From: a virus
Length of the DNA stretch: 20,469 nucleotides
Virus record (IMG/VR): IMGVR_UViG_3300025648_000112
Span: 1-20,469 of that record
Strand: one strand, 5' to 3'
In this document: piece after piece, positions 5,044 to 20,469 of the stretch
How positions within the stretch are numbered: position 1 is the first letter of the stretch
Layout: the number at the start of each line of letters is the position of its first letter
Program-made: the position numbers and the translations under genes
The notes under the pieces: generated by a model
Database searches by the model: none
What the model was told of the DNA's origin: nothing
Seen by the model: the letters and a program-made list of their open reading frames with translations, nothing else

Positions 5044-5637
5044 TCAGAGGACGGGTATAAAAGATAAATTAACATCAAAAATACCTTTGTTTTTAGCTTC
5101 ATTTGTATTGATTTCATCTACAACGTCAAAACCCAATGTCAAACGAAAACCATCATAATTTTCATGAATTTTTACTTCATGATGTTTTAAGCTTGGCCCT
5201 ACATAAATATTACCAATTTCATTTTTTATTTCAAAATCATCAAAAACTGTTGAAGTATTTTTGGGATCAATTGAAACATATCCATGAAACCAAGATCCTT
5301 TATGAATGTGTCTTTTTAAAACTTGATGAGGATTATGATAGTTTAACCAACATTTCATCCATAGCGGCCTATCATCATTTGCAATAGTTCTAATTATTTC
5401 ACACAATTGTTTGTAAAGTTGAAAAAATAAATTAGATCCAACAGTCAAAGAAAAAATATTGTAATAAGCATAACTTTTTGTTGAATCAATGTTGTTATAA
5501 CTTACATGAGTATCAAATCTTTTGTGTGCGTCTAAACAATCTAAAATAAAATTTTTTTGATTATTTACAATTAAAGATGAGTTACAAAGAAAATAACCAT
5601 TTTCTTTTATTTGTTTGATTACAACAATGTTTTTCAT
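5044..5637 (-). CDS. 2-oxoglutarate/Fe(II)-dependent oxygenase-like protein
   Basis: A 197-residue protein whose C-terminal half fits the double-stranded β-helix layout of phage 2OG-Fe(II) oxygenases. It shows WLNYHNPHQ (97-105), an HIH metal-binding candidate (110-112), HGYVSID (118-124), a GNIYVGPS strand (142-149), the distal His (HHEV, 152-155) and an Arg in FRLTLGFD (165) placed to bind 2-oxoglutarate. HIH replaces the more usual HxD, as in some phage members. The enzymes hydroxylate proteins, nucleic acids or small molecules; the substrate here is unknown. The ATG overlaps the upstream TGA as ATGA with no clear ribosome site, so translation is probably coupled. As last gene of the adhesin block, it could modify a fibre protein (inference). 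Confidence 0.65.
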   Translation of the reverse strand: MKNIVVIKQIKENGYFLCNSSLIVNNQKNFILDCLDAHKRFDTHVSYNNIDSTKSYAYYNIFSLTVGSNLFFQLYKQLCEIIRTIANDDRPLWMKCWLNYHNPHQVLKRHIHKGSWFHGYVSIDPKNTSTVFDDFEIKNEIGNIYVGPSLKHHEVKIHENYDGFRLTLGFDVVDEINTNEAKNKGIFDVNLSFIPVL

Positions 5638-6855: not shown

Positions 6856-8061
6856 TCAACTTACACATGTAGATGGGAATCGCCTAGTGTTACCAGGATA
6901 CACTATCCTTACACCACCAATTCCACCGTATCTACAATTTCCAGATGCAGGTGTTGACCCACCGTAATTTCCACCGTACATAGCAAAAGCAATATTTGAT
7001 CCGCTACCGCCACCAGACCCTCCGCCTCCGCCATTGTTTGTACCACAAGCACCTTTTGCTCCATTGGCTCCTTGGCCGTGTAAACCTACACCACCTCCTG
7101 CACCGCCGCAATATCCAAAAGTTGAGCAACAATAACAAACATAAGTTGAATTGCCGCCTCCGCCGCCACCACCAGATCCGCACTGAGCACCTCCACCTGC
7201 GCTTTGTGCTCCTTTTCCGCCAGAACCAGTATATCCTCCTGCACCCATTCCACCATTCCAACCATAGCTATTGCCGTAAGCACCTTTACCGCCGCCGCAA
7301 GCACATGAATAATTTGAACCTTGGCAATATATATTATTTCCAGAGGCAACTGCATAATTAGTTCCACCAACAACTACATAACTACTTGACGCAAATTGAG
7401 AGTTGCAATAACGTCCACCTGAACCCGCATAAACTGTTACCGTTGACCCAGGCGTAACTGCAATATTGTTTGAATACGCAAGCGCTCCTGCAGGCCCATA
7501 ACGTCCTCCTGATCCACCGCCTACTGTAACAACGGAAATTGAAGTAACACCTGCAGGAACCGTCCAGTTATAAGTTCGTGTTGAACCACGCGCTCCGCAG
7601 AAAGTGGCACATCCACGAACAGCTTGTGTGGTTGCACTAGCATTACCACTATAAGATCCATAACCTAATGAGTTTTGTGCTCTCACATGGAATGTGTAAC
7701 TTGTTGATGAAGATAAACCGGTCACACTAATTGGACTACTTGAGCCTGTTGCTGTTTTTGTTCCAGTTGAAGTACAAACAACTTGATAACCAGTAATAGA
7801 TAAGTGTCCTGTACAACTTGGTGCTGTAAAGGAAACAGAAATTGCAGAACAACTTGTAGCTGTAGCGGAACCAATTGTTGGGGCACCAGGAACACTTGTA
7901 TTACTTTTACCGTGGCCTGTATTCATACAGATAGCACCAGATGATTGGCCAAATAGTGTGCGAACGGCCGAGCAATTCAATGATATTTGTGCAGTTGCTG
8001 AATATCCTAATTCGGTGTCTATATTACTAAACGATATTGCGCCTGATGCAGGTAATGTCAT
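6856..8061 (-). CDS. Fibronectin III/glycine-rich tail adhesin
   Basis: A 401-residue tail protein. Residues 1-50 (LPASGAISFSNIDTELG) are a short N-terminal element common in phage tail proteins. Residues 57-146 are a fibronectin type III domain (VPGAPTIGSA, ITGYQVVCTS, SYTFHVRAQNSLGYGSYS). Residues from about 150 on are a glycine-rich domain with poly-Gly runs, ending in GGVRIVYPGNTRRFPSTCVS. This resembles the glycine-rich receptor-binding domains of T-even gp38-type adhesins. It has 19 cysteines, many in the Gly-rich part (including CYCC), which is unusual. It overlaps the upstream fibre gene by ATGA and has an AAAGGA site. It likely forms the distal receptor-binding tip (inference). Confidence 0.85.
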   Translation of the reverse strand: MTLPASGAISFSNIDTELGYSATAQISLNCSAVRTLFGQSSGAICMNTGHGKSNTSVPGAPTIGSATATSCSAISVSFTAPSCTGHLSITGYQVVCTSTGTKTATGSSSPISVTGLSSSTSYTFHVRAQNSLGYGSYSGNASATTQAVRGCATFCGARGSTRTYNWTVPAGVTSISVVTVGGGSGGRYGPAGALAYSNNIAVTPGSTVTVYAGSGGRYCNSQFASSSYVVVGGTNYAVASGNNIYCQGSNYSCACGGGKGAYGNSYGWNGGMGAGGYTGSGGKGAQSAGGGAQCGSGGGGGGGNSTYVCYCCSTFGYCGGAGGGVGLHGQGANGAKGACGTNNGGGGGSGGGSGSNIAFAMYGGNYGGSTPASGNCRYGGIGGVRIVYPGNTRRFPSTCVS

Positions 8062-9815
8062 TTATTTTCCTTTAATCTTTCGACTTCTTCACTTAATTCT
8101 TTGATAGCTTCCACTAGTAATGGAATCAATTTATCATATCTTACTGTTAAATATTTATCATCAATTGGTGCAGGAACCACAATTTCAGGTAATATTGCTT
8201 GAACTTCTTGTGCAGACACACCAACTTCTCTAATTGATTCATATCCTAATGCTTGTGCAGTTTCGTTAGCTTCATAATAGAAACCATTGAGACTTTTAAC
8301 TTTAGACAATGCATTTTGAATTGCACCCAATTTAGTTTTTAACCTATCATCGGAGTAGTAAGCAGTAATGTTATTGGTTGCACGAATCTCACCAGCAGTT
8401 CCAGAAGCTGCGGTGCCAACTCCAAGCGAGTTAAACTGTACACTAGAAGAAGTAGCAACTGCTTGACCAATACTGAATGTAACTGCTCCTGTTGCACCGG
8501 ACACAGAAACACCTGTACCTGCAACAGCGGAAGTAACTGCACCACTAGATGTTAGATAACCAGAAGGATTAGTTGAGTTGTATGGAGTGTATCCTAATCC
8601 TGTTGTAATTTGACTAGATGTTAATGAACCTGTGTATGTGCCAGTTAAGTATGTTGCTGAGTTGGCAGAACCAGTGGTATTTTGGTTTAATGTTCCAATC
8701 GCAGTATTAGAAACTGAAATAACACGGCCATAAGCATCAGTTACAAAAACTGGAATAGTTGTTGAGTTGCCATATGTTGCTGCTGTACCTGTTGTAGCCA
8801 AACCTAAAGCAACAATACCTGTATAAGCGTTTGCAGTTAATTGACCTGAATTAGCCACAATTGCTGTACTAGAAACAGAAACATTACCTGCATATGTTAT
8901 TTGACCACCTGAATTAATTGTAATAACTGGAATGGCCGATGAACCACCATAAGTTCCTGTTGTAACACCTGTACTTGCTAATGTTCCTGTAATTGTACCA
9001 GTAGAATACACATTGCCTTTAACACCAATACCACCAGAAATAATTAAAGCACCTGTGGAATTTGATGTAGATGGTGTGGTGTTTGTAACAATAACTTGGT
9101 CTGTTGTGTTTAATGTTACGTTATTGATTGTTGTATTAGAGAATGTAATATTACCTGTAACATTTAATGTGCCACCAATATTAACATTGCCTGAAATACC
9201 AGTATCACCTGCAACTGTCAATGTACCTGTAGATGTACTTGTTGATATAGTATTTGGTGCATTGATGACAACACCAACGTTGGCTGCATTATAACCATTG
9301 ACAAAGAACTTGACTGATTTACTTGCGGTATATGCACCAATCAATAAGTTACTACCATTAGAATACAAATATGCATCACCTGGATTAGCAGCAGTAAATG
9401 CATTTAATGTGGTGTTATAGTTTTGACTAATAATACCTAAGTCAACATAGTTTGATGTGTCTGTTCCTGCATTATTATATAAAGCAATATCAGATGAAGA
9501 ATTGCCTGTATTTGCAAAGTTTTGAACACCAAGTTGAATTGATTGGTCTGTATTTGCAACAAACATACCTGTTGTATACAAGTGTGCATATGTGTTTGTT
9601 ACATCAGATGCAACAGATGTGGCCAATACAGTCAAATTAGATGTTGCAGTACCTGAAATTGCAAGGTAAGATGGTGCAAAAATATTGTTAGAAGCTGAAG
9701 TAACTTGTCCTTCAGTATTAATTGTGATTGATGGTATCGTAGTTGTACCACCATAAGAACCGGATGTTACCCCAGTATTTGCAAGTACGAAACTACTAAG
9801 TTTTGTTAATGCCAT
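8058..9815 (-). CDS. Tail fibre with C-terminal S74 intramolecular chaperone
   Basis: A 585-residue fibre. Residues 16-42, about 284-307 and 343-368 are GRxT-type β repeats (YGGTTTIPSITI style). About 85-190 is a globular module (DLGIISQNYN, GDAYLYSNGSNLLIG) also found in the 1787- and 750-residue fibres. Residues 485-585 are a Peptidase_S74 domain: SDDRLK gives the Ser-Lys dyad with spacing of five (Ser488, Lys493), then LNGFYYEAN, GVSAQEVQAILPE and YDKLIPLLVEAIKEL. In known members the domain trimerises, helps the fibre fold and is released by cutting just before the Ser. The ATG abuts the upstream TAA, with an AAAGG site about ten bases upstream. Confidence 0.92.
   Translation of the reverse strand: MALTKLSSFVLANTGVTSGSYGGTTTIPSITINTEGQVTSASNNIFAPSYLAISGTATSNLTVLATSVASDVTNTYAHLYTTGMFVANTDQSIQLGVQNFANTGNSSSDIALYNNAGTDTSNYVDLGIISQNYNTTLNAFTAANPGDAYLYSNGSNLLIGAYTASKSVKFFVNGYNAANVGVVINAPNTISTSTSTGTLTVAGDTGISGNVNIGGTLNVTGNITFSNTTINNVTLNTTDQVIVTNTTPSTSNSTGALIISGGIGVKGNVYSTGTITGTLASTGVTTGTYGGSSAIPVITINSGGQITYAGNVSVSSTAIVANSGQLTANAYTGIVALGLATTGTAATYGNSTTIPVFVTDAYGRVISVSNTAIGTLNQNTTGSANSATYLTGTYTGSLTSSQITTGLGYTPYNSTNPSGYLTSSGAVTSAVAGTGVSVSGATGAVTFSIGQAVATSSSVQFNSLGVGTAASGTAGEIRATNNITAYYSDDRLKTKLGAIQNALSKVKSLNGFYYEANETAQALGYESIREVGVSAQEVQAILPEIVVPAPIDDKYLTVRYDKLIPLLVEAIKELSEEVERLKENK
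8062..8620 (-). repeat. Duplicated fibre C-terminal module, copy 2
   Basis: This stretch encodes GYTPYNS..NPSGYLTSSGAVTS, the VQF..LGVGTAASGT.GEIRAT linker and the S74 domain. It is closely matched in protein and clearly similar in DNA to 9819-10390 at the end of the neighbouring gene. The two copies lie in direct orientation less than 2 kb apart, which makes them a plausible recombination substrate. Confidence 0.8.
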
Positions 9816-12800
9816 TTATTTTACCTTTTGCATTAATGCATCAATTTGTTTTTGTTGTTCTTTGATAGCTTCAATTAGTAATGGTATAAGTTTTTCATAT
9901 TGTACTGTTAGATACTTATCACTAATTGGCGCAGGTACTACAACTTCAGGTAAAACGTTTTGTACTTCTTGTGCAGAAACACCAACTTGTTTTTCTGTTG
10001 TGTAACCTAACTCTTGTGCAGTTTGATTGGCTTGATAATAGAAACCGTTCAATGACAATAATTTTTCTAATGCATTTTCAATATTGCCTAATTTAACTTT
10101 TAGTTCATCATCGGAATAACCAGCAGTAATATTTCCTGTAGCACGAATTTCACCAGTTGTTCCTGATGCAGCAGTACCAACACCAAATGATCCAAATTGA
10201 ACAGAAGAACCAGTTCCAATTGATTGTGGTGTAGATAGTGTAACTGCACCTGTAGAACCAGAAACTGAAATTTGATTTGATGTTCCTGTCAACGAAGTAA
10301 CTGCACCACTAGATGTTAAGTATCCTGATGGATTACTTGAGTTATATGGAGTGTACCCTAATGCTGTTGTAACTTGGCCTGATGTTAATGCAATTGCAGT
10401 ATTGGATACTGTTGTAACTCTACCATATGCATCAGTAGTAATAATTGGAATATAATTTACTGCACCATAAGTTCCTGCGGTACCTGCTGTTGCCAAACCA
10501 AGTAACACATTACCTGTACTGGAATTGGCAGTAAGTTGTCCTGAGTTAGCGTATATTGCTGTACTTGGAGGTATAGTTATTGATGCATTAGCGGCAGAAG
10601 TTATTTGACCTTGTGCATTAACAACAAGAACTGGTATTGCAGTAGAACCACCATATGTACCAGAAGATACACCTGTGTTTGTCAATTGAGTAGAGTTAAT
10701 TGTTCCTGTAATCTGTGTATTAGCAATACTTGGAGTTACGTTAGCTGCATATGTTAAACGTCCAAATTGGTCAACTGCAAATACAGCATGTTGTGTAGAA
10801 CCACCATATGTACCAGAAGTTACAGTTGTCGCAATTAAGTTAACTGTTGGTGTTGTACCACCAGTAGAATAGATTTGGCCAGAAGTTCCAGAAACCGCAG
10901 TAACAGGTGAAGTACCACTAGATGCAGCCGTAACACGTCCAAATTGGTCAACTGTTATAGATGAATAGGTGTAATTACCTGGCGTTACAGATGAATTTGC
11001 AATTGCATTAAAATTTGTACCGTTAAAATATACAAGACCATTTGATGCATAAGTGTTGGCGCCTGTACCACCTGCAGCAATTGGTAATGTACCAGCAGTC
11101 AACGTGTTACTTGATGTAGAATATACAGCATTGTAAGCTGCACCAAAACTACTCAAACCAATTAAAACACCATTGTTTGCAGTTAATGTAACAACTTCAA
11201 TAGATGAACCATTTGGTGGTGCAGATGAGAATGTTATTGTATTACCAGATACTGAGTATGTTGATTTTTGTTGTGCAACACCACTAACATATACTGTTGT
11301 ATAATTTATACCAGAAGGTATTGTTGACAAATTGTATGTTGTTGTTACACCATTGCCAATAAAATTATCATCATATGGAACTAATGCTGGAACTAAAGAA
11401 CTTGAATTTGCAGCATTTAATAAAGTAGAAACTTCAATAAGTGAGCCAGAAGGCACTATTTCAGACAATGTAATTACACTGCCAGACAATGTGTATGCAG
11501 ATTTTTGTTGTGTTGCACCATTGATATTAACAATTGTTGAATTAATACCATATGGTGTTGTAGATAACTGATATGTTTGTCCTGTGCCGTTGGCAGTAAA
11601 TGTATCTACGTTAACGGCAATTGCTGCTGTTGCAGTAACTGAATTGTTAGATACAGAAGTAATACGACCAAATGAATCAATTGTAAGACTTGGTATTGAA
11701 GAACCAGTACCATATACACCAGCGGTTACACCAGTGTTTGCAAGACCAAGTGCAATGTTTCCTGTTGCCGAGTTGGCAGTCAATTGACCAACGTTAGGAT
11801 AAATTGCAGTACCAGGTGGAACTGTAATAGAGTTATTTGAAACAGAAGTAATACGGCCGTATGTGTCTATTGTAAGTGTGGGAATACTTGTCGTATTACC
11901 ATATGCACCAGCAGTTACGCCAGTTGTTGCAAGACCTAGAGCAACATTACCAGTAGAAGCGTTAGCAGTTAATTGGCCAGAGTTTGCATAAATTGTAGTA
12001 CCAGGTGGAACTGTAATTGCATTATTTGTGACTGATGTTACACGACCATAACCATCAATTGTAATAGATGGAATACTTGTTGTATTACCATATGTACCAA
12101 CTGTTGCAACATTAGATAATGATGCTAATGTAGAACCATTATAATATGTGATTGTGTTGGCAGTAAATGAGTTAACACCAGTACCACCATTTGCAACAGT
12201 CAATGGATTAGTTAATGTTAAACTTGCAAAAGTTGGTGTTGCAGTTGGTCTTAAATCTTGATTAGAACTGATTGTTAATGTATTACCAGAACCAGTAATC
12301 GTTACACCATTATTACTACTGAATGTAATTGAACTGCCTGTTGGTGTTGCAATTGTTCCGTTTGTACCAACAAAAGTATTTGATGTAGTATTAGAGTGTG
12401 CAAAAGCGGCATTTGCCTCTAAGAAGGCTGCATTAGCATATGCACCTGCTGAGTTTGCAGTAGTAAATGCTGAATTGGCATACGCAGATGCTGCGGCCGC
12501 ATTAGTTGTAGCGGTATTTGCTTGAGTGTAACCAGAGTTTGCGTATGCACCAGCAGAATTAGCTGCCGTAAAAGCACTATTCGCATACGCACCAGCAGAA
12601 TTGGCTGCAATAAATGATGAATTTGCATAAACACCGGCACTGTTAGCCGCAATAAACGCAGAATTAGCATATGAGCCTGCTGAGTTTGCAGTAGTAAATG
12701 CTGAGTTAGATTGTACAAAAGCACCGTTAGCATAAATGCCGGCAGAATTTGCTGCAGCGAACGATGAGTTAGCATAAGATCCTGCACTATTAGCGGCAAC

Positions 12801-15179
12801 AAAAGAACTATTAGCATATGTACCAGCTGAATTTGCAGTTGTAAATGCTGAATTGGCATATGAACCTGCGGCATTTGCAGTTGAATAAGCAGAATTTGCC
12901 TCAACAAAAGCACCATTAGCATATGAACCTGCACTATTGGCTGCACTATAGGATGAGTTAGCCTGAACAAAAGAAGCATTTGCCTGAACAAATATTGAGT
13001 TTGAGAACCCAAATGGTGCAGCTGCTGTATTTTGTTTTGTGCCGTCTGCGAATGTAATAGGTAAAGATTTTAATACAAGACCTGTGTTATATTTGAAACG
13101 AGCAATTTCATTATCTGTTGTAGCACCATTTGCAGCAAAAACAATATCTTTTGGTGTGTTTGTGTAAAATATTAAATTACCACCACCAGTTGTCGTGTTG
13201 CCAGCAGCATACAAATAACCATCATTTGGTCCAAACAAATTATAATTTGGATTTGAGTATGTTGAACTGGTAATACCCATATCAATATAACCATCATTTG
13301 CAGTACCGTTATCGGATGTTGCAGTATAATCAGCCGTTGCATTGGCACCATTATTGATGTTTTGTAAATTCAGCTGTACGAAATCATTATAATTTCCAGT
13401 TGATTGGATAATTGTTTGTGATTCGAAAGTATAACCTGTTGGAATTCCAGCGTACAATGCACCAAAACCATTTGCAGATGAACCAAAAAATTGACCAGTG
13501 TTACCTGAAATAGTTGTAGTGATTACATTACCTGTATATGTAATATTACCACTAACTGTTAAATTGCCATTAATTGTGGTGTTACCAGAAATTGTACCAC
13601 CAGAAGATGAGAATTTACTATTAGCAACAGTAAAAGCACTGTTAGCATAAGAACTTGCACTATTAGCAGCCGTGAAAGCTGCATTTGATTGTACAAAGGC
13701 ACCATTTGCATATACACCAGCTGAGTTAGCGGTTGTGAAGGCTGCATTTGCTTGTGCAAAAGAACCATTAGCATAAATTCCTGCTGAGTTTGCTGTTAGA
13801 TAGGATGAATTTGCATAAGAACTGGCTGCAGCTGCATTAGTAGTTGCCGTATTCGCTTGATTATATGCTGAATTGGCATATGCACCAGCAGAAGTTGCGT
13901 TAGTGTTTGCAGTATTGGCCTGAGTAAATGCACCATTTGCATATACACCAGCAGAAGTTGCTGTAGAATTGGCTGTGTTTGCCTGATTAAATGCAGAGTT
14001 GGCATAAGAACTGGCTGCAGCTGCATTAGTAGTTGCTGTATTTGCCTGTGTGTATGCACTATTAGCATATGAAGATGCTGCGGCCGCATTGGTTGTGGCC
14101 GTATTTGCCTGAGTGTATGCTGAATTGGCGTAAGAACTTGCAGCAGCCGCATTTGTAGTTGCCGTATTGGCCTGGTTGTATGCAGAATTTGCTTCAGCAA
14201 AAGCACCGTTAGCATACGAAGCTGCGGCAGAAATGTTTGTATTTTGTGTTGCATCTACGCCAGCAATTATTGCAACTTGAGTATTTGCATAGTTATATGC
14301 AGAATTGGCATATGAACCTGCTGATATTGCATTTGCGTTGGCGGTATTTGCTTGATTGTAAGCCGCATTAGCCTCTGCAAAAGCACCATTAGCATATGAG
14401 GATGCAGAAGCAATATTATTATTTTGAGTTGCATCAACTCCACTAATTATACTAACTTGTGTGTTAGCGTAATTGTATGCAGAATTTGCTTCCGCAAAAG
14501 CACCATTAGCATATGATGCTGCTGAATTTGCAGTTGAAAAAGCACTATTTGCATAAGAACTGGCTGCAGCTGCATTGGTTGTAGCAGTATTAGCTTGATT
14601 GTAAGCGGAATTAGCAACCACTCTTGCAACGTTATCAATCGCAGCACCACCACTAATTGTATTAGCAAAAGAATAAATTATATTTGCTAATGCAAAAGCG
14701 CCATTTGCATATACACCTGCAGATGTAGCTGTAGAATTTGCAAGATTAGCCTCTGCATATGCAGAATTAGCTTGAACAAACGCTGCATTAGCCTGTATAA
14801 ATGCTGGTTGTGCATATGTACCTGCATTATTGGCAGCATTAAAGGCTGCGTTTGCCTGTGCAAATGCTAAGTTGGCCTGATTATAACCATTACCTGCCAA
14901 TACAAATGCATTATTGGCTTCTGTAAATGCGGAATTAGCGTAAGAACCAGCAGAATTTCCAGTAGAATATGCCAAATTTGCTTGAACAAATGCTGAATTG
15001 GCACGAACGTAAATGTTATTTGCGGTGTCTTGCGTAGCAATATAATGACCACCTTGAGTTACACCGTCTTGTAATACTAAAGTGTTTGCTTGTGTGTCAA
15101 CAGCAAGTTCACCAACGACACCTGTAAATGCCGCAATCTGTGATGTATTACCTCGTCTTAATTGTAATTGTGTTGACAT
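9816..15179 (-). CDS. Giant tail fibre (1787 residues) with Ala-Asn heptads and C-terminal S74 chaperone
   Basis: Residues 1-50 are an Mtd-type virion-anchoring domain (LQLRRGNTS, GELAVDT, LQDGVTQGGHY). About 57-523 are Ala-Asn heptads, likely a trimeric coiled coil. About 524-550 is an ISGNTTINGNL β segment. About 560-720 is a globular module (NDGYLYAAGN). About 725-932 is a second heptad block. Seven GRxT β repeats lie between about 1020 and 1593, interrupted at 1187-1337 by a tandem pair of modules (FTANGTGQTYQLS and FIGNGVTTTYNLS). Residues 1686-1787 are S74 with Ser1689 and Lys1694 (SDDELK). It is the longest gene here and probably a long tail fibre shaft. CATAAATA lies 26 bases upstream and AAAGG about ten bases before the ATG. 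Confidence 0.93.
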   Translation of the reverse strand: MSTQLQLRRGNTSQIAAFTGVVGELAVDTQANTLVLQDGVTQGGHYIATQDTANNIYVRANSAFVQANLAYSTGNSAGSYANSAFTEANNAFVLAGNGYNQANLAFAQANAAFNAANNAGTYAQPAFIQANAAFVQANSAYAEANLANSTATSAGVYANGAFALANIIYSFANTISGGAAIDNVARVVANSAYNQANTATTNAAAASSYANSAFSTANSAASYANGAFAEANSAYNYANTQVSIISGVDATQNNNIASASSYANGAFAEANAAYNQANTANANAISAGSYANSAYNYANTQVAIIAGVDATQNTNISAAASYANGAFAEANSAYNQANTATTNAAAASSYANSAYTQANTATTNAAAASSYANSAYTQANTATTNAAAASSYANSAFNQANTANSTATSAGVYANGAFTQANTANTNATSAGAYANSAYNQANTATTNAAAASSYANSSYLTANSAGIYANGSFAQANAAFTTANSAGVYANGAFVQSNAAFTAANSASSYANSAFTVANSKFSSSGGTISGNTTINGNLTVSGNITYTGNVITTTISGNTGQFFGSSANGFGALYAGIPTGYTFESQTIIQSTGNYNDFVQLNLQNINNGANATADYTATSDNGTANDGYIDMGITSSTYSNPNYNLFGPNDGYLYAAGNTTTGGGNLIFYTNTPKDIVFAANGATTDNEIARFKYNTGLVLKSLPITFADGTKQNTAAAPFGFSNSIFVQANASFVQANSSYSAANSAGSYANGAFVEANSAYSTANAAGSYANSAFTTANSAGTYANSSFVAANSAGSYANSSFAAANSAGIYANGAFVQSNSAFTTANSAGSYANSAFIAANSAGVYANSSFIAANSAGAYANSAFTAANSAGAYANSGYTQANTATTNAAAASAYANSAFTTANSAGAYANAAFLEANAAFAHSNTTSNTFVGTNGTIATPTGSSITFSSNNGVTITGSGNTLTISSNQDLRPTATPTFASLTLTNPLTVANGGTGVNSFTANTITYYNGSTLASLSNVATVGTYGNTTSIPSITIDGYGRVTSVTNNAITVPPGTTIYANSGQLTANASTGNVALGLATTGVTAGAYGNTTSIPTLTIDTYGRITSVSNNSITVPPGTAIYPNVGQLTANSATGNIALGLANTGVTAGVYGTGSSIPSLTIDSFGRITSVSNNSVTATAAIAVNVDTFTANGTGQTYQLSTTPYGINSTIVNINGATQQKSAYTLSGSVITLSEIVPSGSLIEVSTLLNAANSSSLVPALVPYDDNFIGNGVTTTYNLSTIPSGINYTTVYVSGVAQQKSTYSVSGNTITFSSAPPNGSSIEVVTLTANNGVLIGLSSFGAAYNAVYSTSSNTLTAGTLPIAAGGTGANTYASNGLVYFNGTNFNAIANSSVTPGNYTYSSITVDQFGRVTAASSGTSPVTAVSGTSGQIYSTGGTTPTVNLIATTVTSGTYGGSTQHAVFAVDQFGRLTYAANVTPSIANTQITGTINSTQLTNTGVSSGTYGGSTAIPVLVVNAQGQITSAANASITIPPSTAIYANSGQLTANSSTGNVLLGLATAGTAGTYGAVNYIPIITTDAYGRVTTVSNTAIALTSGQVTTALGYTPYNSSNPSGYLTSSGAVTSLTGTSNQISVSGSTGAVTLSTPQSIGTGSSVQFGSFGVGTAASGTTGEIRATGNITAGYSDDELKVKLGNIENALEKLLSLNGFYYQANQTAQELGYTTEKQVGVSAQEVQNVLPEVVVPAPISDKYLTVQYEKLIPLLIEAIKEQQKQIDALMQKVK
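9819..10390 (-). repeat. Duplicated fibre C-terminal module, copy 1
   Basis: Encodes the GYTPYNSSNPSGYLTSSGAVTS stretch, the GEIRAT linker and S74, paired with 8062-8620. The two encoded ends differ mainly at scattered positions (SDDRLK against SDDELK, for example), so this is duplication followed by divergence rather than recent copying. Confidence 0.8.
11170..11615 (-). repeat. Tandem duplicated β module inside the giant fibre
   Basis: Two consecutive copies of a roughly 65-75-residue unit. Each shows F.GNG or F.ANG, then TYQLST or TYNLST, a GIN strand, a V.I.G..QQKS.Y strand, and a final P.GS.IEV.TL strand. The pattern resembles generic phage-tail β domains with a GNG...T..Y motif. The copies are direct and diverged. 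Confidence 0.7.
12387..13010 (-). repeat. 42-bp coding repeats, block 2 (Ala-Asn heptads)
   Basis: In-frame direct repeats within the giant fibre gene. The unit is 42 bases (14 residues, two heptads), for example SAGxYAN followed by SxFxxAN. Three consecutive units at about 12541-12666 are each exactly 42 bases and differ at scattered, mostly third-codon positions. It is a coding repeat and not a CRISPR array. Confidence 0.85.
13612..15010 (-). repeat. 42-bp coding repeats, block 1 (Ala-Asn heptads)
   Basis: The longer heptad block of the giant fibre. An Ala-Asn pair recurs every seven residues for several hundred residues, with a few registers broken by inserts such as VSIISGVDATQNNN and its near-copy. 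Some units, such as the AAAASSYANSAYTQANTATTN type, are nearly identical at the DNA level over 30 or more bases and recur several times, including at about 13820, 13999 and 14549. Confidence 0.85.
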
Positions 15180-15893: not shown

Positions 15894-17264
15894 TTATCCT
15901 ATGTAAGCCACAGACCAGTTGTCGTTGCCATCAAATATGATTGTACCAGAACTTGCAATTAATTGTAGTGTATCGCCTACCGCCAGTTTCACAATGTTGG
16001 CGCCACCGGCATGGTTCATTGAAGTGTTTGGACCAAATTCAACCATAATAGAAGTTGTTGTCCCACCACCAATTGCAGCAGTTTTTCTAACTAAGGCTTG
16101 AGCAATACCACTTGAACTATTATTATATGTTCTAATCACTAAATTAACTTGATATAAACCTGCAACGGGTGCTGTGAATATGCCTGTTGAACCATTCAGG
16201 TAACTTCCTTGGTTGTATTCAATATTCCAATTGCTATTAGTTAATGTTGTTGTAGCGGCAACTGAGCCACCATTACCTCTTACGCAAAATGCTGGACGAT
16301 TTGGTGCATAACCAGCAGCGATACCGTTTGTTGTTGTATTGCCTGCAAGTGTCATATCACCTGCATCAGACAAAGACATTGCTGTTATTTGATATGCACT
16401 ATTGACAACCTGCAAGTTGCCAACGCTATCTAAACGTATGGTTTTATTTGGCTTAGTTGCACCTGCAGAACTATTTGTGAAACTTAAAACATCTGCATAA
16501 CCTGTACCACCAATTGTATTGGCCGCAGTAATATTTACAGCTGTACCAATTGTACTTACGGGTTGATAAGTGACATTCAAACGACCAGTAATTGAACCAC
16601 CAGAAGTTGTTATGGATGTGTTAGCGTAATTGTATGCTGCTTGTGCTAATGCATTTGATGAATTTGCTTGATTATATGATGCATTGGCTTGTACAAAAAT
16701 ACTATTAGAATAAAGTAATAACTCTACACCTTTATCATATATTGTATTTGAACTGATGCTATTGAATATAGAATTTGTTACATTACTTTGTGCACCAGTT
16801 GGTCCAAATTCTGCCCATATTGGATATGCGGTATTACCAAAGTTTTCATACATCACGCCCGTATTAGAATTCAACCACAAATCATTTGGATTTGGAGAAC
16901 TTGGTGCAGAATTTTGGTAATATGTTTGTGTCTTTGCATTGGCTGTTGAGAAGACAATGTTACCATCTAATGTAATTGTCTTACTTGTAGTATTGGCAAT
17001 AACACCAATACCATTTGCGCCTTTGAAACTTAATGTGTCTGTGTTAGATGTTGCGAATATCAATGAACCAGATACGTTCATTGTTGAGAATGAATTGGTA
17101 AACTGGCCGCTAGAGATATATGTTATTGTACCTGTAGCATTTTTATAATACAACTTTCCATCGTAGTAGTTAAGTGCCAACTCACCATAGTTTAGTGATG
17201 TTGGTACATTACCTGATACGCCAGATTTTCTTAGTTGAATTGTTGTATTTGCAAATGTCGTCAT
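15894..17264 (-). CDS. Fibre protein with C1q/TNF-like tip
   Basis: A 456-residue fibre. Residues 1-55 are an N-terminal anchor (TTIQLRKSGVSGNVPTSLNYGELALNYYDGKLYY). About 90-215 contain TDTLSFKGANGIGVI, an NDLWLNSNTGVMYE segment and a short Ala-Asn heptad stretch (FVQANASYNQANSSN). About 220-315 are β-rich. About 320-456 look like a C1q/TNF-type trimeric jelly roll: RPAFCVRG, NWNIEYNQGSYLNGSTGIF, TAPVAGLYQVNLVIR, VKLAVGDTLQLIAS and the final NWSVAYIG. That domain commonly serves as a receptor-binding tip. GGAAG lies about eleven bases before the ATG, inside the DGGSF codons of the upstream gene; the two genes are three bases apart. Confidence 0.82.
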   Translation of the reverse strand: MTTFANTTIQLRKSGVSGNVPTSLNYGELALNYYDGKLYYKNATGTITYISSGQFTNSFSTMNVSGSLIFATSNTDTLSFKGANGIGVIANTTSKTITLDGNIVFSTANAKTQTYYQNSAPSSPNPNDLWLNSNTGVMYENFGNTAYPIWAEFGPTGAQSNVTNSIFNSISSNTIYDKGVELLLYSNSIFVQANASYNQANSSNALAQAAYNYANTSITTSGGSITGRLNVTYQPVSTIGTAVNITAANTIGGTGYADVLSFTNSSAGATKPNKTIRLDSVGNLQVVNSAYQITAMSLSDAGDMTLAGNTTTNGIAAGYAPNRPAFCVRGNGGSVAATTTLTNSNWNIEYNQGSYLNGSTGIFTAPVAGLYQVNLVIRTYNNSSSGIAQALVRKTAAIGGGTTTSIMVEFGPNTSMNHAGGANIVKLAVGDTLQLIASSGTIIFDGNDNWSVAYIG

Positions 17265-17267
17265 CTA

Positions 17268-17825
17268 TTAGAAACTTCCGCCATCCTCTATTGGATTTAT
17301 GATTGTTGTTGCCGTAATAGATTTAGCTTCCTCAATCTTCTTACGCTTTGCCGGAGTTAATTGCAAATATTCTATTTGTTCATTTAATGATTTAATTTTA
17401 GATTCATAATCATTACGAGTTTTTTGGTGTTCATCTCGTTCTTTAATTAATTCATTTCTAAAAGTATCAACGTGTTGAACCTGATGACGTACATTTTCAT
17501 ATTCATGTTTCATGCCATTCAAAGTATTGATTTCTTTTCTCAAATCATCAATAATTCTATCTTTGTCTTCACTTATTTCTCTAACAATCCTATCTTTTTC
17601 TTTGATGGTATTGTTGATAACCTCATTAGCACTTTGTTGAGAATTTGTGGTTTCATTCCTCAAACTCTCAATGATATTTTCCAATTCTTCAACTTTTTGA
17701 TTTAATTCACCAACTGCTTCGTCACTAATTTTAAGATTAGTCTGTAATGAGATATTTCTCAATACAGCATCTTGCATCGTATTAGTCAACAACTCAATAT
17801 AATGATTCACATATTTTTCACTCAT
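17268..17825 (-). CDS. Coiled-coil protein ending in EDGGSF
   Basis: A 185-residue protein of unknown function. Residues from about 30 to 155 are strongly charged and heptad-like (ELNQKVEELENIIESLRNE, EKDRIVREISEDKDRIIDDL, then ERDEHQKTRNDYESKIKSLNEQIEYLQ), so a long coiled coil is expected. Then comes a basic PAKRKKIEEAK patch and the C-terminal tail PIEDGGSF. No signal peptide or membrane segment is seen. It sits between two fibre genes and shares its last residues with the upstream genes, suggesting it works in the same structure, perhaps as a fibre connector or chaperone (inference). It has a strong AGGAG ribosome site seven bases before the ATG. Confidence 0.8.
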   Translation of the reverse strand: MSEKYVNHYIELLTNTMQDAVLRNISLQTNLKISDEAVGELNQKVEELENIIESLRNETTNSQQSANEVINNTIKEKDRIVREISEDKDRIIDDLRKEINTLNGMKHEYENVRHQVQHVDTFRNELIKERDEHQKTRNDYESKIKSLNEQIEYLQLTPAKRKKIEEAKSITATTIINPIEDGGSF

Positions 17826-17853
17826 TTCAAACTCCTAATAAAACATAATAAAG

Positions 17854-17861
17854 TATTTAGA
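17854..17861 (-). promoter_or_regulatory. Weak late-promoter candidate TCTAAATA
   Basis: TCTAAATA on the minus strand, one mismatch from TATAAATA, lies 28 bases before the coiled-coil gene's ATG at 17825 and overlaps the stop codon of the 750-residue fibre gene. The position fits the other boxes, but the match is imperfect and it is constrained by coding. Confidence 0.3.
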
Positions 17862-20109
17862 AGGCGCCTCCATCCATAGTTGTTGTCCATGTTGGAACGC
17901 CAGTGTTGTTTACAGTCAGAATCTGATTAGACCATGTTTGGTCTGCACCACCTGCAGCTGCAGTAACTTGTAATGCACCTGTTCCATTTCCATATATGAT
18001 ACCATTTTGTGTAAATGAAGATTGTCCTGTACCACCATATACTGTTGCAAGTGCTTGTGCAATTGAAACATAACCGTTGGCAGCAATTGTCATTGCATCG
18101 GTCGCACCGTTATTGACAACAAAGTGTATTGGATTTGAACTATTAGTACCAATTGCAAGGTCTGTACTCTGTGCATATAAGTAAACATTGTTTGCAACGT
18201 TTAGAGAACCAGTACCAACAAAATTAGGACCATTGATACCAAAGTCACCATATAAAGTGGTGTCAGTAGAATTGAAATTAGAAACAACAAAGTCAGCGGA
18301 TGCTTGTGTTCCTGTATTTGCGTTCTGAATAACAACTTGTTGATAATTGTTTGCATTAGAACCAAACGCAACAAACGCACCTGTTGCAGCATATGTCAAT
18401 GATCCGATGTTAATGCTATTAGCAGTAACAGAATTTACATTTGAATAAGTTACATTTAATGTTGTTACATTTAGTTGAGAAACATTTAATGTAGCTGCTG
18501 TTGTTGTGCCTCCTAATGTTGCATTATTTGCTAAAACAACTTGACCTGTACCTGTTGTACCGTTAGTAATTTGTGATGCAGGAATTGCAATTGCAGTATT
18601 AGAAACACCAGATACACGACCAAATCCGTCTGTTGTTACGACTGGAATATAAGCTGCATTACCATATGTACCTGCAGTACCAGTATTTGCTAATGATACG
18701 ATTGCAGAGCCGTTAAAATATGTAATCTCGTTGTTTACATAAGATGAATTATTAGTACCACCTTGTGCAAGCGCTAATGTACCAGAAGTAACTTGAGATG
18801 CTGAAATTGCAACTTGAGTATTAGATACAGAAGAAACACGGCCGTATGCATCAGTAGTGATTACAGGAATATAACTTGATGAACCATATGAGCCTGCTGT
18901 GCCTGTGTTCGCAAGAACTTGTAATGCACCAGAGCCATTACCAATTACAATACTACCAGCATTAAAACTTGTTGCACCTGTACCACCATTTGGTACTGTT
19001 AATGCGTTAGTTAATGTTAATGTACCACTAACAGTTTGATTTACAACATTTGACGTTTGAACTGTTGACTGGAATGCATTGATGTTTGTATACAACGTGG
19101 CAGTATTTGCCTGTGTAAAATAGTTATTACTTAATGTATTTGCTATTGAAGCATTTGTAGCAGCAATGTTTGCAAACAAATAGTAGTTTTTAGAACCTGC
19201 GTCACGCAATAAACCAGTTACATTGTTTGTTGAACCATTATTATACAATCCATAGAAACCAATATCAATTACGTCACCAGTAGTGTTATTGGCTGCCAAC
19301 TCAATCATTGAGTCGTTAGTTTGCACAATCGATGTATTGACGTATGTTGCAGTACCAGAAACAATCAAGTTACCAGAAATCTGTACGTCTGTACCAATTG
19401 TTTGTGGACCAACACCAGAAGTGTTAGAACGTAAAACTGTATTGTCTGTAGCAATCAATACTGTTTCTGAACCACCAGAACCAGTAACTGTTGTTGTAAT
19501 ACCAGTTCCATTACCTTCAATAGTTAATGTGCTGCCACCTTGTTGTGAACCTGATCCTGTATTACCTGAAACAGTGAATGAAGTTGCAATCGTATTATTA
19601 GAAATAGAAGTAATACGACCTTTTGCATCAACTGTAATTGTTGGAATGCTTGTTGTATTACCATATGCACCAACATTTGAGTTGACTGTTGCTAATGTAA
19701 ATCCTAATTCAACGTTGGCAGTACCGTTGAAGATAACGTTAGCTGCAGTTGCATCACCGTATGCACCAAAATATTGTGGATTTTGTAGTTGTGTTGCGTA
19801 TGTTGCTAAGTTTGCTGTGTTAGCATTAAGATTACTGACAGAAATGCCTGCAGCAGTAATATATCCAACAGAAATATTACCCATCGCATCACGTTTGACG
19901 ATGGTTCCTGAACCATTTGCTGAAGAAGCATTGTCAATTTGTGATGTATAATATTGACCACCAATGTTTACAACACCAGTACCTGTTGAGTTACCAATGA
20001 AGATGGTGTTAGACAGATATGAATATGCTAATTCACCTGCCTTAAGCGAACTTGGTGTACCGGTTGCGGTAGAACGCTTAATTAGAATACTTGTATTTGA
20101 TGCGGCCAT
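17857..20109 (-). CDS. Modular tail fibre (750 residues) ending in DGGAF
   Basis: Residues 1-55 are an N-terminal anchor (SILIKRSTATGTPSSLKAGELAY). GRxT β repeats lie at about 147-170, 405-427 and 477-500 (YGNTTSIPTITVDAKGR style). Three GGTG modules (PNGGTGATSF, AQGGTNNSSY, YGGTGQSSF) lie in the second half. About 578-663 is a globular module (NVYLYAQSTDLAIGTNS) related to those in the 585- and 1787-residue fibres. The protein ends TWTTTMDGGAF and lacks an S74 domain. It is probably a structural fibre or baseplate-fibre segment. An AAGGA site lies about ten bases before the ATG and an AATAAATA box 32 bases before. Confidence 0.85.
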   Translation of the reverse strand: MAASNTSILIKRSTATGTPSSLKAGELAYSYLSNTIFIGNSTGTGVVNIGGQYYTSQIDNASSANGSGTIVKRDAMGNISVGYITAAGISVSNLNANTANLATYATQLQNPQYFGAYGDATAANVIFNGTANVELGFTLATVNSNVGAYGNTTSIPTITVDAKGRITSISNNTIATSFTVSGNTGSGSQQGGSTLTIEGNGTGITTTVTGSGGSETVLIATDNTVLRSNTSGVGPQTIGTDVQISGNLIVSGTATYVNTSIVQTNDSMIELAANNTTGDVIDIGFYGLYNNGSTNNVTGLLRDAGSKNYYLFANIAATNASIANTLSNNYFTQANTATLYTNINAFQSTVQTSNVVNQTVSGTLTLTNALTVPNGGTGATSFNAGSIVIGNGSGALQVLANTGTAGSYGSSSYIPVITTDAYGRVSSVSNTQVAISASQVTSGTLALAQGGTNNSSYVNNEITYFNGSAIVSLANTGTAGTYGNAAYIPVVTTDGFGRVSGVSNTAIAIPASQITNGTTGTGQVVLANNATLGGTTTAATLNVSQLNVTTLNVTYSNVNSVTANSINIGSLTYAATGAFVAFGSNANNYQQVVIQNANTGTQASADFVVSNFNSTDTTLYGDFGINGPNFVGTGSLNVANNVYLYAQSTDLAIGTNSSNPIHFVVNNGATDAMTIAANGYVSIAQALATVYGGTGQSSFTQNGIIYGNGTGALQVTAAAGGADQTWSNQILTVNNTGVPTWTTTMDGGAF

Positions 20110-20140
20110 TTTAGGGTCCTTATTATAATTGTTATCTGCC

Positions 20141-20148
20141 TATTTATT
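20141..20148 (-). promoter_or_regulatory. Late promoter box AATAAATA upstream of the 750-residue fibre gene
   Basis: On the minus strand AATAAATAGGC, identical over 11 bases to the box before gp13, lies in the 51-base gap between the TGA at 20161 and the ATG at 20109. The repeat of the flanking GGC as well as the core supports a real site. Confidence 0.65.
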
Positions 20149-20160
20149 GAAAAACATATA

Positions 20161-20469
20161 TCAAAAATTACCTCCGTCAATGTTGCCATCAACAAGTTGG
20201 ACGGAGTTGTTTGCTAAGTAATATGCGGTATTTGCTTCGGATAAAGCTGTGTTTGCTGTATCACTGACTGCACTGGCTAATGAATAAGCCACATTTGCCT
20301 CAATGGCTGCTGAATTTGCTACCTGATAAACTGAATTAGCGTAAATATATGCTACGTTCGCCTCGTAAGATGCTGCATTAGCGGTTGCACCAATCTCTGT
20401 TATCTCTGTGACAATATTGGCTGAACCAACAAAAGTTGTGGTCCCTCTAACCGAATAATTCTGAGTTGG
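20161..20469 (-). CDS. Fibre protein, C-terminal 102 residues (5' end beyond the window)
   Basis: I translated this edge fragment by hand. It is open to the window edge and ends at TGA 20161-20163. It contains an unbroken run of about nine Ala-Asn heptads (TANAASYEAN, then VAYIYAN, SVYQVAN, SAAIEAN and so on), then NNSVQLVDGNIDGGNF. The heptads suggest a trimeric coiled coil like that of the giant fibre, and the last residues match the DGGxF tails of the next two gene products. The start, N-terminal domains and full length lie outside the window. Confidence 0.8.
   Translation of the reverse strand, partial: PTQNYSVRGTTTFVGSANIVTEITEIGATANAASYEANVAYIYANSVYQVANSAAIEANVAYSLASAVSDTANTALSEANTAYYLANNSVQLVDGNIDGGNF

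Follow-up and report, generated by a model that had tools for sequence, protein, structure and literature searches.

Short C-terminal tails in a phage fibre cassette as probable plugs of a T4 gp36/gp37-type joint

In the long tail fibre of phage T4, gp36 links gp35 to gp37 at a distance from the baseplate, and with its C-terminal end it binds gp37 at the N-terminal end (PMC9603124); the binding partner of the trimeric gp36 is the N-terminal region of gp37 (PMC3004832). The papers found on this joint describe whole protein ends only, and according to one of them an atomic structure of a whole long tail fibre has yet to be presented. For phage DT57C it is described that the N-terminal beta-strands of LtfA augment the sheets of LtfC and are followed by a trimeric coil (PMC10713586). 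Here we describe a set of adjacent fibre genes in a viral DNA of 20,469 nucleotides (IMG/VR record IMGVR_UViG_3300025648_000112, positions 1 to 20,469; this whole stretch is called the window), three of which encode proteins with nearly the same last residues. These tails are real and strongly selected, and we consider it very probable that they are the plugs of a joint of the T4 gp36/gp37 type, used serially in one fibre.

C-terminal tails in the window and in related loci

Three adjacent open reading frames (ORFs) on the minus strand of the window end in NIDGGNF (protein A, stop at 20161), TMDGGAF (protein C, stop at 17857) and IEDGGSF (protein D, stop at 17268). The DNA pattern GAYGGNGGNNNNTTYTRR has exactly three matches in the window, which are these three ORF ends; the other strand of the window gave zero matches, as did the reversed control. 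Upstream of the last 7 residues the C-termini of A, C and D show no similarity to one another above that of shuffles, and no longer homologous domain common to the three proteins was found. An earlier inspection of the letters, here called the sequence-only reading, had described D-G-G-x-F ends on three adjacent but otherwise unlike proteins and had stated that no later fibre gene of the window ends in this manner; the ORF ends, the codons and the ORF list agree with it on each of these points.

The related loci comprise 80 IMG/VR loci with 685 distinct plus-strand ORFs, fetched with the C-terminus of protein C as query. The order of the genes, LtfC-like, A, B, C, D, E, is the same in practically all loci that cover the region. 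The LtfC-like protein heads this cassette and E closes it, both without a tail, and in between up to four genes in a row (A, B, C and D) end in D-[G/A/S/M]-G-x-F/Y. Enrichment at C-termini, which the sequence-only reading had suggested as a check, is evident: 177 of the 685 ORFs end in [DN][GA]Gx[FY] as compared to 0.09 expected from the internal rate, and shuffling the last 30 residues gave a mean of 0.08 motif ends with a maximum of 2. As the C-terminus of C had served as the query, the part of this count that falls in slot C is biased; the counts of slots A, B and D are free of this bias. In whole records there are two to five motif ends per genome, nearly all of them in the cassette (reversed control about 0.1).

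The slots have their own variants of the tail. Slot A (about 73-370 aa) ends in D[G/A/S/M]Gx[F/Y], in many relatives as DAGFF, DSGFF, DMGFF or DGGTY. Slot B, 65-95 aa in most loci and absent from the close relatives of the window, ends in DGGxF, occasionally plus one S or T. Slot C ends in [L/M/I]DGGxF and slot D in [K/E]DGG[S/T]F. The Asp-Gly-Gly codons of the window are GAC GGA GGT in A, GAT GGA GGC in C and GAT GGC GGA in D; since the codons vary between slots as well as between lineages, selection acts on the peptide, as had been supposed from the window. A similar end, DGGKF or DAGKF, also occurs on a tetraspanin-like membrane protein of three relatives (L108:897-1820, minus strand; L109:899-1927, minus strand; L110:137-1315, plus strand).

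The socket domain, the T4 joint and a probable LtfC-like anchor

Proteins B, C and E share an N-terminal domain of 46 residues, xIxIKRS....P..L..GELAYSY..N.LFIG, which we call the socket; the C-terminal tails are called plugs. Protein B consists of a socket, a linker and a plug only, which is the form expected of a coupler. A tblastn search with the socket of S-SRM01 as query led to T4-like coliphages, where it matched the N-terminus of gp37, the distal protein of the long tail fibre. The socket profile (A2) was made from cyanophage, freshwater and marine sequences only, with no coliphage sequences among them, and it matched residues 6-48 of T4 gp37 with E=1.7e-11 (1000-sequence scale); in six other T4-like phages it matched gp37 at E values between 1e-12 and 3e-6. 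In whole coliphage genomes gp37 was the sole profile match (E about 5e-12 in ECML-134); the gp37 of a Jiaodavirus was missed in the whole-genome scan, yet it matched in direct profile comparison. In other words, a gp37-type socket is found on the putative receiving proteins C and E of the window as well as on gp37 of T4 and its six relatives.

The putative donating proteins are alike in the corresponding way. The gene preceding gp37 encodes gp36, which ends in QDFGYY in T4, ECML-134 and OE5505, in QDFGYYS in STML-198, and elsewhere in IDFGEF (Proteus PM2), LDYGTF (Acinetobacter KARL-1), IDFGSY (KP15) and IDFGTY (a Jiaodavirus), i.e. in D-[F/Y]-G-x-[F/Y] in relatives of other genera. A terminal D-x-G-x-[F/Y] is seen on A, C and D of the window and on gp36 of T4 and its relatives; there is no such tail on gp34 or gp35 of T4 and the relatives inspected. 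The two systems thus have in common a homologous N-terminal socket and an upstream product with this end. They differ in that T4 has one such joint, with the socket on gp37, whereas in the clade of the window the plug is carried by the serial segments A, B and C and by the unrelated coiled coil D, and sockets are found on two or three proteins. Moreover, the plugs of the window's clade mostly have Gly or Ala as their second residue, where gp36 has Phe or Tyr, and the likeness of A or C to gp36 is, by eye, confined to the tail.

A sequence search for a solved structure of the socket found none. The predicted fold resembles collagen XV/XVIII trimerisation domains, Mtd and the N-termini of phage hyaluronidases; these matches have little strength (Foldseek E>0.3, Z at most 4), yet they fit a small trimeric beta domain. 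The Mtd_N family (PF18454) resembles the socket, being likewise a short beta domain at the N-terminus and having a GELA-like motif, and is likely to be a distant relative of it. The similarity of the profiles is weak (E=2e-4 for the 1787-aa protein of the window), as is that of the folds. At E<=0.1, PF18454 matched neither C nor E of the window nor B of the related locus L030, while other window proteins do match it; Mtd_N-like domains are also present in plug-free phages (S-SSM7, by eye). For both reasons the Mtd_N-like domains are probably not sockets. In the window, Mtd_N starts the proteins at 1499-2089 and 9816-15179 (both minus strand).

We propose that a C-terminal plug, hD[G/A/S/F/Y]Gx[F/Y], would dock into the small beta-rich N-terminal socket of another long-tail-fibre segment. 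The fibre of the window's phage would be built of separate segments, in which an LtfC-like collar protein would hold the beta-strand N-terminus of A, the plug of A would enter the socket of C (that of B and then that of C in relatives that have B), and the plug of C would enter the socket of E. The far end of E, a C1q-like domain, is presumably the receptor-binding tip. In protein D, a flexible linker tethers the plug to a coiled coil; this plug, too, most likely enters a gp37-type socket, probably the one of E.

Anchoring of this fibre by a T5-like LtfC collar protein is probable. The LtfC-like gene lies directly upstream of the cassette, just outside the window, and its product matches PHROG 3304 (E=6e-19) and T5 p132 (chain 7qg9, E=1e-3); the match to the Pfam LtfC-like family (E=1.3e-4) is below the curated cut-off. 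The AlphaFold2 (AF2) model of the protein (mean predicted local distance difference test score, pLDDT, 84) has the LtfC beta-sandwich fold, the top PDB matches being DT57C LtfC and T5 p132 (E=2e-10, template modelling score, TM, 0.73). Protein A of a close relative of the window begins with two strand-like repeats, followed by heptads. This make-up fits the role of an anchor by analogy with LtfA, where strands also precede a coil, and an LtfC-A contact would follow the same pattern. In T5 and DT57C, however, a long fibre protein provides the anchor with its N-terminus; in the clade of the window a short separate protein with a plug at its end would take this part. The features are collected in Table 1.

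Table 1. Positions of the fibre proteins, plugs and sockets in the window (A2, socket profile; L008, a contig nearly identical to the window)
Feature	Position	Strand	Basis or remark
Protein A, C-terminal 102 aa, cut by the window edge (putative anchor segment)	20161..20469	-	near-identical contig L008
Complete 121-aa copy of protein A	L008:5634-5999		beta-strand repeats at N-terminus, then heptads, then plug
Plug DGGNF of protein A	20164..20178	-	sequence and pattern match
Protein C, 750-aa beta-rich fibre segment with N-terminal socket and C-terminal plug	17857..20109	-	
Socket of protein C, residues 4-50	19960..20100	-	profile A2, E=2e-23
Plug DGGAF of protein C	17860..17874	-	sequence and pattern match
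Protein D, 185-aa charged coiled coil, plug at end, no socket	17268..17825	-	
Plug DGGSF of protein D	17271..17285	-	sequence and pattern match
Protein E, 456-aa fibre without a plug; socket at N-terminus, C1q-like domain at C-terminus	15894..17264	-	
Socket of protein E, residues 5-50	17115..17252	-	profile A2, E=4e-22

Plug and socket counts and the other readings of the tail

Isolates that carry an LtfC homologue were compared by reading the annotated genomes and by searching the whole genomes for plugs and sockets. In ten isolates the numbers agree. The ratio of plugs to free sockets was 2:2 in P-HM1, DC31, Mosig, Melnitz-1, P-SSM2 and S-CAM9, protein A of DC31 ending in ESGQY, a degenerate form that was counted as a plug. 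It was 1:1 in ACG-2014f, S-SRM01, S-T4 and DSL-LC03, the last of which has an internal socket as well. The whole-genome search found neither plug nor socket in S-CAM1, S-SSM7, S-SCSM2R, S-CREM2, DLP_6, Bellamy and SparkleGoddess. HTVC008M has no plug and one marginal Mtd_N-like match (E=0.009), and its A-like N-terminus is fused into a 1020-aa fibre. S-T4 and S-CAM9 were inspected once the model had been formed, and both fitted. In ACG-2014f, S-SRM01 and S-T4 a distance of 82-98 kb separates the plug gene from the socket gene, so position in the genome alone does not explain the matching counts. P-HM1, Bellamy and SparkleGoddess have apparent motif matches away from the cassette, all of them out of frame; two further candidate matches are W12:73631 (S-SRM01) and W13:25444 (DSL-LC03).

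Two natural fusions of A to a socket are without the plug where the two meet. In DSL-LC03, A runs straight into a socket; the junction reads EIDGQVNPTIKIKRT and lacks a plug. The beginning of the tail can still be made out in it and leads into the first strand of the socket, while the free end is gone. C48C1 has a similar A-socket fusion with an internal socket and no plug, and is the one discordant case in the test for co-occurrence of plugs and sockets (Fisher p=1.2e-4, uncorrected for kinship). No more natural fusions were found in IMG/VR.

Several observations speak against the serial joint. The isolates share kinship, which means that the co-occurrences are not independent. In the clade of the window there are four plugs (A-D) as compared to three sockets (B, C and E), even at E=10. 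In Vibrio phage 2.275.O, the gene immediately upstream of a socket gene encodes no plug. The AF2 monomer model of B has four strands, and the tail is disordered and undocked; self-docking of B's own tail, a separate possibility, is not seen in it. Finally, the tetraspanin-like protein lies far from the cassette and adjoins polymerase-like ORFs, and no link of it to the fibres or the socket was seen. Its DGGKF/DAGKF end may reflect chance plus common descent, or possibly a second use of the tail.

The sequence-only reading had offered a docking tag, a chaperone tag and a processing site as explanations. The notion of a docking peptide is well supported; it is the partner that has to be revised, from a baseplate protein or one common virion component to what is most likely the gp37-type socket of another segment. 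A common hub, i.e. the LtfC collar or a baseplate protein that would bind all tails, would suit the near identity of the tails and the position of the LtfC gene next to the cassette, and it would account for the one plug in excess of the sockets. Yet LtfC occurs without plugs in S-CAM1, S-SSM7, S-SCSM2R, S-CREM2 and Bellamy; the plug cassette of P-SSM2 is about 74 kb from LtfC, yet its sockets match; and the T4-like tail sits on gp36, between gp35 and gp37 and remote from the baseplate. T4 already suggests that plug and socket can do without LtfC or such a hub. We regard such a hub as improbable.

It is just as unlikely, in our view, that the tail is an assembly or chaperone tag for folding or trimerisation that would be absent from the final joint. 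Protein D, a coiled coil without a socket, could indeed be an assembly factor that sits transiently in a socket. However, the number of plugs tracks that of sockets and the plug is lost exactly at the A-socket fusions, neither of which a general chaperone tag need follow; no shared chaperone was identified, though no systematic search for one was made. As the counts follow the sockets and the T4 tail is on the structural protein gp36, the chaperone tag and the processing site are not needed.

Least probable of all is that the tails are merely inherited, as a short C-terminal module passed on by descent or exchange whose last five residues have no specific role: a loosely similar beta-hairpin precedes the tail of A and C in several phages (by eye) and each slot conserves its own codon choices, but the tail of A in the window follows heptads and that of D a charged coil with nothing else in common, the linker of D varies while the last residues stay fixed, and same-slot proteins without detectable homology keep the tail.

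Protein D, codon choice and a possible wider use of the joint

Protein D has a conserved N-terminal helix and an LTPAKRKK motif, followed in relatives by a linker of 17-42 aa and then the plug. With four plugs for three sockets, the plug of D is left without a socket of its own. D may branch off the socket of E, bridge C and E, or act during assembly. A homology of D to short coils at the same place in marine phages was considered and is not established (best E=0.07). The plug might even be an autonomous, portable docking peptide of five or six residues, enough to hang the unrelated coiled coil D on a gp37-type socket. Plugs and sockets would then form a common code by which these phages put their fibres together from three to five interchangeable parts, segments as well as branches; we put this forward tentatively, at somewhat less than an even chance.

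The codon choice within slots is biased, characteristic and conserved in the related loci. In slot D, GGC GGA is nearly fixed, GGA being used at the second Gly in 55 of 58 cases, as compared to a share of about 10% of the Gly codons in C genes. E starts about 4 nt past the stop of D, so these two codons probably double as the ribosome-binding site of E. In slot C, GGA is found at the first Gly in 49 of 65 cases, followed by GGT or GGC; the next start is about 41 nt downstream, and no clear reason for this preference was found. A ribosome-binding site as the cause of the motif was rejected: the starts after A and C of the window are 31-51 nt away and have Shine-Dalgarno-like sequences of their own, so a ribosome-binding site cannot explain the peptide.

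Some other genes around the cassette deserve mention. In the window, a Peptidase_S74 (endosialidase chaperone) domain ends two adjacent fibre proteins (8058-9815 and 9816-15179), and a protein of 401 aa (6856-8061) has a fibronectin type III domain and then a glycine-rich region, possibly as an adhesin tip. A possible 2OG-Fe(II) oxygenase (PF13759, below cut-off; 5044-5637) lies between fibre and head-tail genes; all four are on the minus strand. In the Pelagibacter phage Mosig, the LtfC-plug cassette is immediately preceded by a stretch of metabolic genes (L088:1-8771; molybdenum cofactor, aminotransferase, FMN reductase, peroxiredoxin, dioxygenase).

Joints of this kind are known from T4. 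We have not found the short plug and small socket, their serial use or the transfer of the plug to a coiled coil described in the open-access papers searched. A plug of five residues and a socket of 46 residues would give the gp36-gp37 joint a precise and testable definition. It would then be possible to tell from the sequence alone which separately encoded fibre proteins pair, even at a distance of 100 kb, in cyanophages, Pelagibacter and methylophile phages and T4-like coliphages. Receptor-binding proteins, hard to spot in these genomes, would thereby become easier to find.

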